A stretch of DNA of 64,000 bases. Origin: Cellulomonas fimi. Its GTDB lineage: Bacteria; Actinomycetota; Actinomycetes; Actinomycetales; Cellulomonadaceae. The stretch covers positions 2,604,001 to 2,668,000 of the forward strand of contig NZ_CP110680.1 of NCBI RefSeq assembly GCF_028583725.1, written 5' to 3'. Below, in pieces: positions 51,308-57,421 of this stretch (the first letter of the stretch is position 1; each line of letters opens with the position of its first letter). The notes beneath the pieces are model-generated. The model saw only the letters and a program-made list of their open reading frames with translations. It made no database searches and was not told the origin of the DNA. Both the position numbers and the translations under genes were made by a program.

Positions 51308-51784
51308 TCAGAACGGCCCGTTGGGGAAGACCTCCTCCGCCGTGTCGGCGTAGCCGGCCTCCTGCTCGGCGAGGTACGTCTCCCACGCCTGCAGGTCCCA
51401 GATCTCGACGCGGGTGCCCGCGCCGATGACGGCGACGTCACGGTCCAGACCGGCGTACTTGCGCAGCACCGGCGGGATCGAGATGCGGCCCTGCTTGTCG
51501 GGCAGCTCGTCGCTCGCGCCCGACAGGAACACGCGCAGGTAGTCCCGCGCCTGCTTGCTCGTGACCGGCGCCTGCCGGAGCTGGTCGTGCATGCGGCGGA
51601 ACTCGTCCATCGGCAGCAGGAAGAGGCAACGCTCCTGCCCGCGCGTCATGACGAGCCCCGGTGCGAGCTGGCCGCGGAACTTGGCCGGGAGGATGAGCCG
51701 GCCCTTGTCGTCCAGGCGCGGCGTGTACGTCCCGAGGAAGGGCGCGAAGGACCCGAAGAAGCCGGTCGACGAGTCATGCGTCAC
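51308..51784 (-). CDS. mraZ: Transcriptional regulator MraZ
   Basis: 158 aa. Two SpoVT/AbrB-like MraZ repeats: [25 protein letters not shown] (about 15-40) and [25 protein letters not shown] (about 90-115), each with the DxKGR-type core. It binds direct repeats before its own operon and can repress dcw genes. The GTG at 51784 has GGGAGG upstream; an adjacent GTG one codon earlier is possible. Three clusters of candidate binding repeats lie upstream. Confidence 0.94.
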
Positions 51785-51835
51785 CACGCCTCCCTCCCGG
51801 TCCTCGTCGCGGGTTCTCCCCGCCTCACCACGTGC

Positions 51836-51861
51836 CTCCACGGTACTCCACTTCCCTCCAC
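51836..51861 (-). promoter_or_regulatory. MraZ-type box facing mraZ
   Basis: On the minus strand GTGGAG occurs three times (starting 51861, 51851, 51841) at an exact 10-bp period, ending 52 bp before the mraZ start. This spacing is that of known MraZ operators (short G-rich repeats, one per helical turn). Confidence 0.65.
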
Positions 51862-51923
51862 CCGCCACTGGAAAGGTGCGTGAATTCACCCGTCGGGAAG
51901 CGTGAAGGTGCAGGTCAGAGGCG

Positions 51924-51949
51924 GTGGAGGGAAGTGGAGCGGAAATGGG
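51924..51949 (+). promoter_or_regulatory. MraZ-type box 2, facing moxR
   Basis: GTGGAG at 51924 and 51934, then AATGGG at 51944: same 10-bp period, opposite orientation. The 17-mer GGTGGAGGGAAGTGGAG is identical to the one in the mraZ-facing box. Confidence 0.55.
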
Positions 51950-52060
51950 GGTTCACCCGTCCGGGGCGTGTCGCGACCGCGGCGAGAACAGGGCTCACCG
52001 GGCGGAAGTTCGCGATTCGCCGCAGGGGCCCGTCGCCCCGCGCCGCGGTTTCGCCCGCAG

Positions 52061-52080
52061 GTGGAGGGAAGTGGGGGGAC
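52061..52080 (+). promoter_or_regulatory. MraZ-type box 3, facing moxR
   Basis: GTGGAG at 52061 and GTGGGG at 52071, sharing GGTGGAGGGAAGTGG with the other two boxes. It ends about 30 bp before the moxR -10 candidate. Confidence 0.55.
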
Positions 52081-52110
52081 GAGTCCAGGTCAGCGCGGGC
52101 CCGATTCCTT

Positions 52111-52116
52111 TAGGCT
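52111..52116 (+). promoter_or_regulatory. moxR -10 candidate
   Basis: TAGGCT, with transcription predicted near 52123, followed by AGGGAGGCGTC and the ATG at 52144. Confidence 0.4.
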
Positions 52117-52143
52117 CGTCACAGTTCCGCCAAGGGAGGCGTC

Positions 52144-53157
52144 ATGCTGCAGGCCGTGCCGTCGTCGAGCGAGCTCGACGACGTCGTCGACACCACCGGC
52201 CGGATGCGCGCCGGCATCGAGTCCGTCGTCACCGGACGTCCAGAGCTCGTCCGCACCACGCTCGCCGTGCTGCTGGCCGAGGGGCACCTCCTGCTGGAGG
52301 ACGTCCCGGGCGTCGGCAAGACCACGCTCGCCAAGGCCGTGGCACGCACCATCGACTGCCCCGTCGGTCGCATCCAGTTCACGCCCGACCTGCTCCCCAG
52401 CGACCTCACCGGCGTCAACATCTTCCGGACGCAGACGCACGAGTTCGAGTTCCGGCCCGGTCCGGTGTTCGCGCACGTCGTCATCGGCGACGAGATCAAC
52501 CGCGCCTCGCCCAAGACGCAGTCGGCCCTGCTCGAGTGCATGCAGGAGGCGCAGGCCACCGTCGACGGCCGCACCTACCCGCTCCCCCGGCCGTTCCTCG
52601 TCGTCGCGACGCAGAACCCCGTCGAGATGGAGGGGACGTACCCGCTCCCCGAGGCGCAGCGTGACCGCTTCATGGCGCGCCTCACCGTCGGCTACCCCAG
52701 CGTCGAGTCCGAGCTCGACATGCTCGACCTGCAGGAGACGTCCGACCCGCTCGACCAGCTGCGGCCCGTCACCGACGCCGCGACCGTGGCCCGGCTGATC
52801 GGGACCACGCGCCGCCTGTTCGCGGCCCCGGCCGTCAAGCGGTACGTCGTCGACCTCGTCACCGCGACCCGCCAGGACCACGGGCTGCGCCTCGGCGCGT
52901 CCCCGCGCGCCGCGATCCAGCTCCTGCGCGCCGCGAAGTCCGTCGCCGCCATGGACGGGCGCGACCACGTGCTGCCCGACGACGTCCAGCAGCTCGCCGA
53001 GCCCGTCCTCGCGCACCGCCTCCTGCCCAGCACCGAGTCCCGGCTCTCCGGGCGCAGCACGAGCGACATCGTCGCGGACATCATCGAGCGGACCCCGCTC
53101 CCCGTGTCCGCGGCGCTGACCGCGACCGCCTCGCGCGCCCGACGCGCCATCGGCTGA
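52144..53157 (+). CDS. MoxR-family AAA+ ATPase
   Basis: 337 aa. Walker A in DVPGVGKTTLAKAVA (about 55), Walker B in HVVIGDEINRASPKTQSALLECMQE (about 115), sensor 1 in VVATQNPVEMEGTYPLPEAQRDRF, and a C-terminal lid domain. MoxR ATPases act as chaperones that activate partner complexes. It forms an operon with the DUF58 and transglutaminase genes (one-base TGATG overlap with the next). It is divergent from mraZ. Confidence 0.95.
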   Translation: MLQAVPSSSELDDVVDTTGRMRAGIESVVTGRPELVRTTLAVLLAEGHLLLEDVPGVGKTTLAKAVARTIDCPVGRIQFTPDLLPSDLTGVNIFRTQTHEFEFRPGPVFAHVVIGDEINRASPKTQSALLECMQEAQATVDGRTYPLPRPFLVVATQNPVEMEGTYPLPEAQRDRFMARLTVGYPSVESELDMLDLQETSDPLDQLRPVTDAATVARLIGTTRRLFAAPAVKRYVVDLVTATRQDHGLRLGASPRAAIQLLRAAKSVAAMDGRDHVLPDDVQQLAEPVLAHRLLPSTESRLSGRSTSDIVADIIERTPLPVSAALTATASRARRAIG

Positions 53158-54398
53158 TGGGCCTGCGGCCCACCCGTCGAGGCTGGGCGCTCGGGCTCGG
53201 CGGGGTCGCCCTCGGGCTCCTCGGCGTCGGGCTCGGGGCCGTCGACCTCGTGCGCATCGGCACGCTCGTCGTGCTGCTGGTCGTCGGCGCGTGCGTCGTC
53301 GTCGGCACGCTCGACCCCGGGCGCGGTCGGCACCGGCTCGCCGTCGCCCGGGACGTGCAGCCCAACCCCGTCCACACGGGCGAGCGCGCGCGGGTCGACG
53401 TGCGCATCAAGGCGTCCGACCCCGCCGCGCGCGTCCGGCTCGCCGGCCTGCGGTTCTCCGAGCAGGCGGCGACCGAGCTCTCGGGCGGCCGGCCGCTGCG
53501 CGCCCGCGTGCAGCGCACACCGCAGCAGGTCACCGTGTCCTACCAGGTGGACGCCGGCCGGCGCGGGCGCTGGCAGCTCGGCCCGCTCGTCGTCACGCGG
53601 GGCGACCCGTTCGGCGTCGCCCGGTCCAGCGCGACGCTCGGCGACCACGCCGAGGTCGTCGTGTGGCCGGCCGTCGTGCCGCTGCCCACCGCGTCGGACG
53701 TGCTCGTCGGCGAGCCCGACCGGGTCGCCCTCGGGGCGCGCACGCCCTCGACCGACGACGCGTCGCTGCGCGACTACCGCGAGGGCGACGACCTGCGCCG
53801 GGTGCACTGGCGCAGCAGCGCGCGCCGCGGCGCCCTCATGGTGCGCTCCGACGAGCGCGCGGGCATGCGCCCCGTGTCGGTCCTGCTGGACCTGCCCGCC
53901 AAGCTCACCGCGCTCGAGTGGACCATCTCGCTCGCCGCGTCGATGGCCCTCGCGATGCTCGAGGGCGGGCACCCCGTGCGGCTCGTCGGCGGGCGCGCAG
54001 GCGCCGCGACGGCCTTCCACCAGGCCCGCACCGGCCCGACCGCGCGCGCCGCGCTGCTCGACTCGACCGTCGACCTGGAGGCCCCGCGTTCCGCCGACGA
54101 GGCCGAGACCTACCTGCTCGGCGCCGCGCACCTGCTCGAGACCACCGACGCCGGCGGCGAGATCGTGCTCGCCGTCCTCGGGCCGCTCGGTGCGGGCGCC
54201 CGCGCCGCCCTCGCGCACGTCGCCGACAACGCGCAGGGCTGGGCCGTGGTCCGCGCCGACGGCGCCTCTCCCGCGCACGAGCGCGAGGCGCAGCACACCG
54301 TGCACGCGCTGCGACGGGCCGGCTGGCGTGCGTGCGCCGTCACCCCCGGTGAGGACATCGTCGCCTGCTGGCTCCGGCTGCTCGGGAGCGCACGGTGA
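53157..54398 (+). CDS. DUF58 domain protein (MoxR partner)
   Basis: 413 aa. Two N-terminal membrane helices (WALGLGGVALGLLGVGLGAV and GTLVVLLVVGACVVVGTL) precede a beta-rich region. The DUF58 core is LRDYREGDDLRRVHWRSSARRGALMVRSDE (about 200). A VWA-like fold usually follows in this family. It probably recruits or is remodelled by the MoxR ATPase; the role is unknown but often linked to envelope integrity. Confidence 0.9.
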   Translation: MGLRPTRRGWALGLGGVALGLLGVGLGAVDLVRIGTLVVLLVVGACVVVGTLDPGRGRHRLAVARDVQPNPVHTGERARVDVRIKASDPAARVRLAGLRFSEQAATELSGGRPLRARVQRTPQQVTVSYQVDAGRRGRWQLGPLVVTRGDPFGVARSSATLGDHAEVVVWPAVVPLPTASDVLVGEPDRVALGARTPSTDDASLRDYREGDDLRRVHWRSSARRGALMVRSDERAGMRPVSVLLDLPAKLTALEWTISLAASMALAMLEGGHPVRLVGGRAGAATAFHQARTGPTARAALLDSTVDLEAPRSADEAETYLLGAAHLLETTDAGGEIVLAVLGPLGAGARAALAHVADNAQGWAVVRADGASPAHEREAQHTVHALRRAGWRACAVTPGEDIVACWLRLLGSAR

Positions 54399-56701
54399 AC
54401 GCCGCCCCCGCCCGCATCCCCCGCGGCCCGCGCAGCCTCGTCGCCACCGCGCTGTGCGCCGTCGCGACCTGCGCCGCGGTGACCGCGCTGTCGAACCTCA
54501 TCGAGCCCGGCCGCTGGCTCACGGTCACGTGGGTCGCCGTCCTCCTCGTCGCCGCCGTCGTCGCCGGGACGCGCGCCGTCACGCGGTCCTGGTGGGCGCC
54601 GACCCTCGCCGGCCTCGTGGTCCTCGCCGCCGGCACGCTCGTCCGGTACGGCGCTCCCCCGGGCCGCATCCAGGTCCTGCCCGACCTCGGCTCGCTCGAC
54701 CGCACCCTCGCGACCGCGCGCGAGGGCATCGCCGTCGTCAACGCCTCCCTCGTCCCCATGACGGGCGTCCGGCCCGCCGAGCTGCTCGTCGTCGTGGGCG
54801 CCGTCGCCGTTCTGCTCGTCACCGACCTCGTCGCCGTCGGCCTCGGCGTCCCCGCCCTCGCCGGGATCCCGCTCGTCGCGCTCTGGACGCCGACCGTCGT
54901 GCTCGGCTTCCCCGCGAGCAGCTGGGCCGTCGCGTGGACCGGGCTCGCCTACCTGCTCCTGCTCGCCCTCAGCGCCGCGCCCCCGTCCGCGCGCAGCGAC
55001 CGCGCCCGCCGCACCGGTGGAGCCCTCGCGGGCGCCGTCGCGGTCGTCGTGCTCGCGCTGGTCGCCGGGCCCGTCGTCGCCGCCCTGCCCGGGTGGGCGT
55101 CGCTCGCGCTGCCCACCTTCGGCAACGGACCCGTCGGGCCCCTGCAGCTCTCCGACAACCTCGACCTGCGCGAGAGCCTCGGCACGCGGTCCGGGCAGGT
55201 CGTGCTGCGCTACAGCATCGTCGAGCCCGAGGCGGCCGCCGAGGGTGGGGACGACGCTGACGACGAGGCCGACGGCGGGACCACCGACGGCCTCGGCCTG
55301 CCGGTCCCCACCCCGACCGACGACGGCGTCAACGTCACCGCACGCGTCGTCGGCCCCCTGCGCGCCTTCACGCTCACCACGTTCGACGGCCGCGAGTGGC
55401 AGCGCGACGACACGCTCGACCTCGCGACCTGGGAGCCCGGCCGGCTCCTCACGTCCGACCCCACCCTGCGCGGCGACACCCCCGACCCCGGGCGCGGCAC
55501 CCTCGCGGCCGTCGACGTCGAGGTCGGTGCGCTGCGCGAGCGTCGGCTGCCCGTCAGCACGTTCCCCCGCACCGTCGCCGTCGAGGGCGCCTGGACCTAC
55601 GACGAGCTGCGCGACGAGGTCGTCGGACGCCGCAGCACCTTCGACGGCATGCGCTACTCGATGCTCGTCGAGATCCCCGAGCTCACGCCGGACGACCTCG
55701 CCGACGCACCCGTCGGCACGCCCGACGACGGCGGTGCGTCTCTCGAGGTCCCGAGCACCGAGCACCGCGAGCAGATCGCCGACCTCGCACGCGAGATCAC
55801 CGCCGACGCCGCGACCCCGTACGAGCAGGCGATGGCGCTGCAGTCCTACTTCCGCGCCGGCACCAACTTCACCTACGACACCCGCATCGCGCCCGCGCGG
55901 AGCGAGGACGCCGTGTGGGACTTCCTGCAGTCCCAGCGCGGGTACTGCGTGCAGTTCGCGACGTCGATGACCGTCATGTCGCGCATGCTCGGGATCCCGG
56001 CGCGCGTGGGCGTGGGCTTCCTGCCCGGCGACGCGAACGGGGACGGCCAGTACGTCGTCACCGGTCGCAAGTCGCACGCGTGGCCCGAGCTGTACTTCGC
56101 CGACCTCGGGTGGGTCCGGTTCGAGCCGACGCCCGCCGTCCAGTCCGGCCTCCCGCCCGTCTGGAGCGACCCGTTCAGCGGCGTGAACGCGCCCGCGAGC
56201 CAGCCCGACGAGGCGATCCCGACCGCGGCGGCGCCGACCGGTGCTGCGACGAGCGCACCCGCGCCGTCCGCCCCGACGGAGACCGAGGAGGCCGGCGAGG
56301 GCTGGACCCGGATCGGCGTCGTGGTGGGCGTCGTGCTGCTGCTCGTCGTCCTCGGGCTGTCACTCGTCCGCCGGCGGACCCGCACACGCGCCGACGAGAC
56401 GCCCGAGCGCGCCTGGCTGCGGACACGGCGACGCCTGGCCGCGAAGGGCGTGTCCTGGTCGGACGCGACGACGCCGCGCGAGGCGGTCGCTGCGGTCCAC
56501 GAGCAGGTGCGTGCGAGCGCCGGCGTCGAGCTCGACGACGCCACAGCCGGGGCCCTACGGGCGCTCGCGCGGACGGTGGAGCGCGAGCGCTACGCGCCGG
56601 TCCCGGACGAGGTCCACCCCGACCAGCTCGTGCGGTGGACCGACGAGATCGTCGACGGCGTGGGGTCCGTGCTCGCAGGCGCCTCCCGCTCGACCGACTG
56701 A
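54395..56701 (+). CDS. Membrane-anchored transglutaminase-like protein
   Basis: 768 aa from a GTG that overlaps the DUF58 stop by four bases. About six N-terminal membrane helices (DUF3488 region, 1-225) precede an extracytoplasmic region with the transglutaminase core: Cys in SQRGYCVQFATSMTVMSRMLGIPARV, His in GRKSHAWPELYF and Asp in ADLGWVRFEPTP (about 505-575). After a Thr/Ala/Pro linker comes one more helix (IGVVVGVVLLLVVLGLSLV, about 640) and a cytoplasmic DUF4129-like tail. The triad is complete, so it may hydrolyse or cross-link peptides outside the membrane. Confidence 0.9.
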   Translation: MNAAPARIPRGPRSLVATALCAVATCAAVTALSNLIEPGRWLTVTWVAVLLVAAVVAGTRAVTRSWWAPTLAGLVVLAAGTLVRYGAPPGRIQVLPDLGSLDRTLATAREGIAVVNASLVPMTGVRPAELLVVVGAVAVLLVTDLVAVGLGVPALAGIPLVALWTPTVVLGFPASSWAVAWTGLAYLLLLALSAAPPSARSDRARRTGGALAGAVAVVVLALVAGPVVAALPGWASLALPTFGNGPVGPLQLSDNLDLRESLGTRSGQVVLRYSIVEPEAAAEGGDDADDEADGGTTDGLGLPVPTPTDDGVNVTARVVGPLRAFTLTTFDGREWQRDDTLDLATWEPGRLLTSDPTLRGDTPDPGRGTLAAVDVEVGALRERRLPVSTFPRTVAVEGAWTYDELRDEVVGRRSTFDGMRYSMLVEIPELTPDDLADAPVGTPDDGGASLEVPSTEHREQIADLAREITADAATPYEQAMALQSYFRAGTNFTYDTRIAPARSEDAVWDFLQSQRGYCVQFATSMTVMSRMLGIPARVGVGFLPGDANGDGQYVVTGRKSHAWPELYFADLGWVRFEPTPAVQSGLPPVWSDPFSGVNAPASQPDEAIPTAAAPTGAATSAPAPSAPTETEEAGEGWTRIGVVVGVVLLLVVLGLSLVRRRTRTRADETPERAWLRTRRRLAAKGVSWSDATTPREAVAAVHEQVRASAGVELDDATAGALRALARTVERERYAPVPDEVHPDQLVRWTDEIVDGVGSVLAGASRSTD

Positions 56702-57025: not shown

Positions 57026-57421
57026 TCAGCGCCCCTGCTCGCCCCGGCGGCGGTCCCAGCGCTCCTCGAGCCGCGACATGAACCCGCTCTTGCGCGCCTG
57101 CGGAGCACGGCGGACGGCCCCGTCCGCCTGGACGACACCCTGCGGGCCGTGCCGCCGGGAGCCGCGGTGCGGGTCGGCGAACGCGAACGCCACGCCCGCG
57201 AACATCACGACGAAACCGACGACGCCGAGCAGCGGCACGCTGCCCGCGGCGCCGAGGACGAGCAGGAGCAGACCGACGGCTGCGCCGGCGCCGGCGATGA
57301 GATACCGACTGACGGGCCGGCGGCCACGCTGCGTGAGCGTGTTGGCCAAGCGCGGGTCGTCAGAGGTGAGCTGGCGCTCCATCTGCTCAAGTACGCGCTG
57401 CTCGTACTCGGAGAGAGGCAT
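57026..57421 (-). CDS. DUF3040 membrane protein
   Basis: 131 aa. MPLSEYEQRVLEQMERQLTSDDPRLA is the DUF3040 N-terminus. Two membrane helices follow (YLIAGAGAAVGLLLLVLGAAG and PLLGVVGFVVMFAGVAFAF), then a basic C-terminal tail. Actinobacterial family of unknown function. It is 35 bp after dinB on the same strand, but has its own -10 candidate overlapping the dinB stop. Confidence 0.88.
   Translation of the reverse strand: MPLSEYEQRVLEQMERQLTSDDPRLANTLTQRGRRPVSRYLIAGAGAAVGLLLLVLGAAGSVPLLGVVGFVVMFAGVAFAFADPHRGSRRHGPQGVVQADGAVRRAPQARKSGFMSRLEERWDRRRGEQGR

Follow-up and report, generated by a model that had tools for sequence, protein, structure and literature searches.

The gap between mraZ and the divergent moxR operon of Cellulomonas fimi carries three boxes of short G-rich repeats, one facing mraZ and two oriented towards moxR. 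The initial annotation proposed that MraZ binds these boxes and that it also controls moxR-DUF58-transglutaminase through the two on the moxR side. A shared divergent gap leaves two genes that the boxes could serve, and the question is to which of them they belong. The window analysed here is a stretch of 64,000 nucleotides, and all positions below are given in its numbering.

The mraZ-moxR gap and its repeat boxes

The mraZ gene is the first gene of the dcw cluster (51308..51784 on the minus strand, with the GTG start at 51784 or at 51787). According to the Pfam analysis, its product matches PF02381 with 122 bits against a cut-off of 23, in two domain copies. On the same strand downstream, rsmH-, FtsL-, PBP-, MurE- and MurF-like genes were recognized by eye in the list of open reading frames. 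The two PF02381 domains and the first place in the dcw cluster assign the product to the MraZ family. MraZ of the nearest named relatives (Cellulomonas) is 99% identical, and the solved structures among the relatives of Cellulomonas MraZ bear the entry names 1n0e, 9qlg, 9sx6 and 9qlr. The divergent neighbour on the plus strand is moxR (52144..53157; AAA_3 ATPase, PF07726, 210 bits). Its operon continues with a DUF58 gene (53157..54398, plus strand, PF01882) and a TgpA-type transglutaminase gene (54395..56701, plus strand, PF11992 and PF01841), and a DUF3040-like gene in the list of open reading frames (57026-57421) lies beyond it. The gap between mraZ and moxR corresponds to 51779-52143 (365 bp).

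Box 1 (51816..51861, minus strand), the predicted primary MraZ operator, contains the GTGGAG units 51861-51856, 51851-51846 and 51841-51836, then GTGGTG (51831-51826) and, as a weak last unit, GGGGAG (51821-51816), with an exact 10-bp period throughout. The box facing mraZ had been annotated with three units at a 10-bp period; the period is correct, and the count is raised to four good units and a weak fifth one. Box 1 thereby has the form of an MraZ box, which is defined by at least three GTG-containing repeats at a period of about 10 bp before mraZ. Box 2 (GTGGAGggaaGTGGAG, 51924..51939, plus strand), a putative auxiliary operator, is inverted relative to box 1 and located 73 bp from box 1 unit 2, with GTGGAG at 51924 and 51934. 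Box 3 (GTGGAGggaaGTGGGG, 52061..52076, plus strand), a putative distal operator, is likewise inverted, with GTGGAG at 52061 and GTGGGG at 52071; it is located 137 bp from box 2 and 210 bp from box 1 unit 2. Both boxes are oriented towards moxR. Two to three units had been assigned to them, of which two good units in each are retained; the third unit of box 2 (AATGGG at 51944) is weak and unconserved. With two good units each, boxes 2 and 3 alone are short of the three repeats of an MraZ box.

The sequence shared by the boxes in both orientations was confirmed. Boxes 2 and 3 share the 15-mer GGTGGAGGGAAGTGG as a perfect direct repeat, and a stretch of 17 nt in box 1 matches box 2 perfectly in inverted orientation. 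The 14-mer GTGGAGGGAAGTGG occurs without mismatch only three times in the whole genome of 4,486,221 bases, each time inside the gap, and the three exact genome matches of GTGGAGNNNNGTGGAG are also all in the gap. With up to one mismatch, GTGGAGNNNNGTGGAG gives 25 genome matches (five in the gap and 20 elsewhere) against 36 for the reversed control. Since the reversed control gives 36, the one-mismatch matches outside the gap look like chance. Further strong MraZ targets in this genome were considered and rejected, the 20 pairs outside the gap not exceeding the reversed-control number. In 19 genomes (this one and 18 relatives), the exact GTGGAGNNNNGTGGAG pattern is matched 48 times; by coordinate, 44 of these sites lie no more than about 1 kb from mraZ. 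The reversed control gives 21.

A protein search gave 80 named loci, and moxR is the divergent neighbour of mraZ in 76 of them. Box 2 and a distal box are both present in 59 of the 76, box 2 only in 13, a distal box only in two and neither in one; the remaining locus is without the box-1 signature. Nine of the 13 loci with box 2 but no distal box are labelled Cellulosimicrobium. As these 13 loci keep box 2 without a distal box, the full box set is not essential. In the named loci the GTGGRG units are constant and the 4-nt linkers are variable. We aligned 57 gaps, namely that of the window and 56 others of up to 420 bp. Islands of conservation are formed by box 1, TTCACCC, GCAGGTCA, box 2, box 3, TAGGCT and the stretches beside both start codons; the GTGGRG units keep their 10-bp period, and the remaining gap sequence is mostly unconserved. 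These results indicate that the three repeat boxes are real and old. The initial annotation had made its reading depend on the conservation of boxes 2 and 3 in relatives, and they are indeed conserved. This conservation, however, does not discriminate between boxes that serve mraZ and boxes that serve moxR.

Two of the islands lie between box 1 and box 2. TTCACCC (51885..51891, plus strand; GGGTGAA on the mraZ strand), upstream of box 1, is also conserved in Sanguibacter without moxR, and is possibly an activator site such as one for MtrA. The element GCAGGTCA (51910..51917, plus strand) equals the boxes in conservation among the 57 aligned gaps, and usually stands 11-12 bp ahead of box 2 (5' to 5'). 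In the order and class surveys described below, WGGTCA is found near box 2 in 39 of the 64 loci having box 2; the offset (5' to 5') is 11-12 bp in 30 of the 39 and 22-25 or 32-33 bp in seven. Among the open-licence papers searched, none was found on GCAGGTCA or TTCACCC as MtrA sites.

Distribution of the boxes with MraZ and with moxR

Two larger sets of loci were compared. The order survey consists of 100 loci from 191 genomes with an MraZ match among 198 searched; it is not a random sample, as the 30 best-scoring loci were taken and the rest were picked for added genera and families. Loci L009-L038 share species with the named set and were counted only once. The class-only survey, also non-random, consists of 73 loci. 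From the class search L266, L267, L268, L270 and L276 were dropped by name; they come from order genomes, three of which the order survey already contained. L260-L264, which come from order genomes too, were left out. Kinship was handled only by counting distinct family/spacing pairs, without a tree.

In the order survey the neighbour of mraZ is a divergent moxR in 51 loci and neither moxR nor a DUF3040 gene in four. Where the moxR operon is not beside mraZ, a DUF3040 relative is often the direct upstream neighbour in the same orientation (45 of the 100 loci). The moxR-adjacent order loci have opposite-strand pairs upstream of box 1 in 45 of 51, with 112 matches against 2.1 in dinucleotide shuffles, 11 for the reversed motif and three on the mraZ strand. 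In the case of the DUF3040-adjacent order loci with the box-1 signature, such pairs are present in 34 of 41, with 87 matches against 1.4 in shuffles, 13 for the reversed motif and none on the mraZ strand. The reversed motif (11 and 13) exceeds the shuffles, so the shuffle background is too low; the excess over the reversed motif is still 7- to 10-fold. When order and class loci are taken together and loci without the signature are counted as without pairs, upstream pairs are found in 45 of 61 DUF3040-adjacent and 57 of 87 moxR-adjacent loci (Fisher P 0.37); loci with other neighbours divide into seven with pairs and 18 without.

The class-only loci with the box-1 signature are split unevenly. 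Upstream pairs are missing in 22 of 34 moxR-adjacent loci, four of 14 DUF3040-adjacent loci and 10 of 17 others, and are present in 12, 10 and seven, respectively. The 34 moxR-adjacent loci contain 20 matches in 12 loci, against eight reversed-motif matches in five. The family with the lowest MraZ identities fetched (f21) has pairs in nine of nine loci, with 18 matches against 0.1 in shuffles and two for the reversed motif. In this family DUF3040 adjoins mraZ in eight loci, and the contig of the ninth ends close upstream.

In Sanguibacter, all four loci without moxR at mraZ keep box 1, the inverted box 2 and a distal box. The best MoxR relatives in Sanguibacter are 47-48% identical, against 65-98% for the mraZ-adjacent MoxR of the named loci. 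One Sanguibacter contig (L096) ends 0.4 kb upstream, and moxR is scored as absent there by the genome search only. Open frames were read in three of the loci, and two of them (L091 and L097) have a co-oriented DUF3040-like gene as the neighbour.

The moxR gene was also followed to other places. Among 12 genomes without adjacent moxR, seven encode a MoxR of 56-62% identity at another place, where a DUF58 gene is also present (eight loci). In ten genomes with adjacency, the adjacent MoxR is 56-65% identical (100% in the genome of the window) and the next paralogue is at most 50% identical. According to these values, the eight non-adjacent loci are likely relocated orthologues. None of the eight has a pair within 500 bp upstream, and thus the boxes do not travel with moxR as they would with a member of the MraZ regulon. 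All 46 moxR loci scanned give three weak matches against seven for the reversed motif in 23.5 kb, two of the loci having less than 80 bp of upstream sequence. The seven genomes with relocated moxR all keep opposite-strand pairs at mraZ.

The opposite case, moxR without MraZ, is given by the genus g85, in which no MraZ match was found in any of the 19 genomes searched. In all nine genomes tested, moxR is kept and divergent at 1.1-1.3 kb from rsmH, and neither strand carries a pair within 1,200 bp. Three small genomes of the family f4, which also have no MraZ match, have no box and no moxR nearby either. Box presence follows MraZ presence in that the boxes are absent from nine of nine g85 and three of three f4 genomes; some genomes that do have MraZ lack the upstream pairs as well. 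As MraZ-less g85 keeps moxR near rsmH but has no box, the boxes are best read as MraZ operators. Their designation as MraZ-type, which had been made from the repeats, is borne out by the GTGGRG units at a 10-bp period and by this absence.

The Sanguibacter, order and class, relocated-moxR and g85 comparisons indicate that the boxes go with MraZ and with the promoter of mraZ rather than with moxR. We consider it highly probable that they belong to mraZ and not to moxR. The locus contains a trap: the shared divergent gap suggested a new target gene, and the genomes lacking either partner point the other way.

Predicted promoter elements, spacing and a proposed operator

The TA after box 1 unit 2 is conserved across Cellulomonadaceae in the gap alignment, and GTGGRGTAnnGTGG, with this TA, is found in 96 of the 100 order-survey loci and 61 of the 73 class-only loci. 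In the window, the predicted mraZ -10 is TACCGT (51840..51845, minus strand) between box 1 units 2 and 3. TACCGT, TAAAGT, TAATGT and similar hexamers presumably fit the actinobacterial TANNNT -10. Box 1 (GTGGAG-TACCGT-GGAG) thus likely carries the mraZ -10, and with a TANNNT -10 between its units, MraZ on box 1 would sit on that element. For moxR the predicted -10 is TAGGCT (52111..52116, plus strand), which is strongly conserved in the aligned gaps. The predicted transcription start points lie near 51833 on the minus strand for mraZ and near 52123 on the plus strand for moxR. No conserved -35 was seen for either gene in the 57-gap alignment.

Of the 75 named loci with the signature, 70 have the nearest inverted pair 70-73 bp from box 1 unit 2. 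In the order loci this distance is 70-74 bp in 31 loci, 80-85 in eight, 92-96 in five and 103-106 in five; single loci have 62, 130 and 131, and the rest at least 176. From box 1 unit 2 to the first distal box, the distance is similar whether moxR is there or not, with a median of 197 bp with moxR (n = 43) and 210 bp without moxR (n = 39). The spacings between box 2 and the first distal box are clustered in 38 of 47 family/spacing pairs (91-94, 103-105, 115-116, 124-125, 135-139, 144-149 and 156-158 bp), and the other nine are 72, 83, 161, 165, 189, 205, 206, 277 and 328 bp. These 47 spacings give an nR2 of 20.6 at 10.75 bp, against 0.1 at 9.5 bp and 1.1 at 12 bp. In a jitter null measured from box 1 unit 2, a signal as strong was obtained in 0 of 5000 trials for the proximal box, a value that tests tight placing as much as period, and in 3 of 5000 for the distal box. 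The boxes are therefore in helical register, as is expected of a looping repressor.

The same analysis was applied on the moxR side. In the named moxR loci, boxes 2 and 3 keep helical register with each other (nR2 9.5, 26 distinct spacings). The moxR -10, as TAGGnT, was measurable in 39 of 59 named loci, and its distance from box 3 ranges from 28 to 181 bp with an nR2 of at most 2.9 (22 distinct values), i.e. no register. Here the box 2 spacing was taken to the first distal pair and the moxR -10 distance from the last, and these are different pairs in multi-pair loci. In the window, the likely moxR -10 follows 50 bp after the start of box 3; 12 of the 39 measured loci have a distance of 50 or 51 bp.

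The spacings between opposite-strand GTGGRG pairs peak at 10 bp (115 pairs), 12-13 bp (38) and 22-23 bp (55), and on the mraZ strand there are 11 pairs in all up to 30 bp. In five loci (L242, L201, L230, L180 and L198) the distal box is expanded to an array in which GTGGRG-type pairs mostly recur every 22-23 bp; in L242 the array comprises six pairs at this spacing. Unit sequences in box 1 and in the upstream boxes covary weakly (rho 0.25, P 0.008, n = 109, uncorrected for kinship).

We propose that the three boxes form one multi-part MraZ operator of the mraZ (dcw) promoter, a reading that the sequence comparisons make probable. MraZ on box 1 would cover the -10 TACCGT and block RNA polymerase. 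Boxes 2 and 3 would act as auxiliary operators in the opposite orientation, about 7 and about 20 helical turns upstream. MraZ subunits assemble into a ring, to which every subunit contributes a DNA-binding unit, so that a single ring could grip box 1 together with an inverted upstream box. One MraZ oligomer may then bridge box 1 and the upstream boxes, with looping or wrapping of about 200 bp. Bridging would raise the local concentration of MraZ and tighten the repression of dcw, as the auxiliary operators of LacI do. We infer binding, looping and repression at the boxes from their arrangement, and for the looping step itself we put the chances at about even. The architecture is found through much of the class, sometimes as arrays with a period of 22-23 bp. 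A wider reading, which we offer more tentatively than looping at this locus, is that across much of Actinomycetes MraZ rings join the promoter-embedded operator and the inverted phased upstream operators (in some lineages the arrays of GTGGRG pairs every 22-23 bp) in one closed loop of DNA and protein that would gate the whole division and cell-wall cluster.

The reading of the initial annotation, that MraZ at boxes 2 and 3 controls moxR-DUF58-transglutaminase and that division cluster and envelope operon are co-regulated, draws on the orientation of these boxes to moxR and on the position of box 3, 50 bp upstream of the conserved TAGGCT, where an activator could sit. The boxes nevertheless stay where moxR is gone, are absent at the likely relocated orthologues and in the MraZ-less genomes that keep moxR, and are in register with the mraZ boxes and not with the moxR -10; of the 34 class-only loci that have the box-1 signature and lie beside moxR, 22 also have no pairs. 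We thus rejected moxR control as the main reading and regard it as unlikely. A mixed case has a somewhat better chance, though we still think it rather improbable: boxes 2 and 3 mainly serve mraZ, and the ring bound to them has, through the shared gap, a secondary influence on the moxR promoter in Cellulomonas. The geometry of the 365-bp gap is in keeping with it, and with 50 bp from the start of box 3 to the likely moxR -10, MraZ bound there could influence the expression of moxR in this genome; against it, the register between box 3 and the moxR -10 is not conserved. The evidence speaks against selection for an effect on moxR, not against the effect itself.

Other explanations leave the boxes at mraZ and change what they do. 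The upstream boxes might only titrate MraZ as decoys, or block transcription from the moxR side, in either case with no looping. Relatives with many-pair arrays, such as the six in L242, would suit this, but titration or a roadblock requires neither helical register nor a fixed distance of 70-74 bp, and a near-fixed first distance together with helical register is what bridging predicts. We judge such a role improbable. The least probable alternative, to which we give very little weight, is that the upstream boxes bind another factor (e.g. MtrA or a reader of GCAGGTCA) and resemble box 1 incidentally. It draws on the conservation of GCAGGTCA, which is as high as that of the boxes, on the conserved TTCACCC and on the binding of MtrA to the mraZ promoter in Dietzia, as stated in the excerpt of PMC9602371. 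The GTGGRG unit and the 10-bp period are, however, the same as in box 1, and all boxes are missing in the nine tested MraZ-less g85 genomes. The idea that the boxes are remnants of a moved promoter was also considered; their conservation without moxR counts against it.

Comparison with known MraZ systems and LacI

MraZ is among the most conserved bacterial regulators, and why its rings form and what the ring does on DNA are poorly understood. The action of MraZ on its own operon via 10-bp repeats is already known. The boxes of Cellulomonas resemble the MraZ autoregulatory site of E. coli, B. cenocepacia and Mollicutes in having short G-rich repeats of about 10 bp before mraZ. According to the excerpt of PMC7761207, the B. 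cenocepacia site has four repeats, overlaps the start point and is located downstream of the -10, as in E. coli. Compared with this description, boxes 2 and 3 of Cellulomonas are shorter, with two good units each, box 1 encloses the likely -10, and inverted sites are added about 60-200 bp upstream. Among the matches listed in the open-licence literature, no paper deals with MraZ control of moxR, and none with MraZ and auxiliary operators, looping or inverted phased upstream sites.

Two cases come from closer relatives. The excerpt of PMC7761207 also names C. glutamicum as a known MraZ case. As far as this mention goes, the likeness is that MraZ acts within the class Actinomycetes. The target in C. 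glutamicum is reportedly ftsEX, and we know of no upstream auxiliary sites in that system. In Dietzia, MtrA regulates and binds the mraZ promoter (PMC9602371). It is thus another regulator at an actinobacterial mraZ promoter; the difference is that MtrA is not MraZ, and the excerpt gives no motif.

The widespread inverted and phased MraZ sites lead to a concrete prediction, phase-dependent looping at the dcw promoter. If the closed-loop reading is true, MraZ would work by looping or wrapping the DNA and would be more than a simple roadblock. The nearest parallel in arrangement is LacI with its primary and auxiliary operators, where a repressing site at the promoter is likewise combined with further sites in helical register. 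The two differ in that looping by MraZ is proposed here from the arrangement of the sites, and in the protein itself: MraZ is a ring of AbrB-like subunits, whereas LacI is a tetramer of helix-turn-helix dimers.
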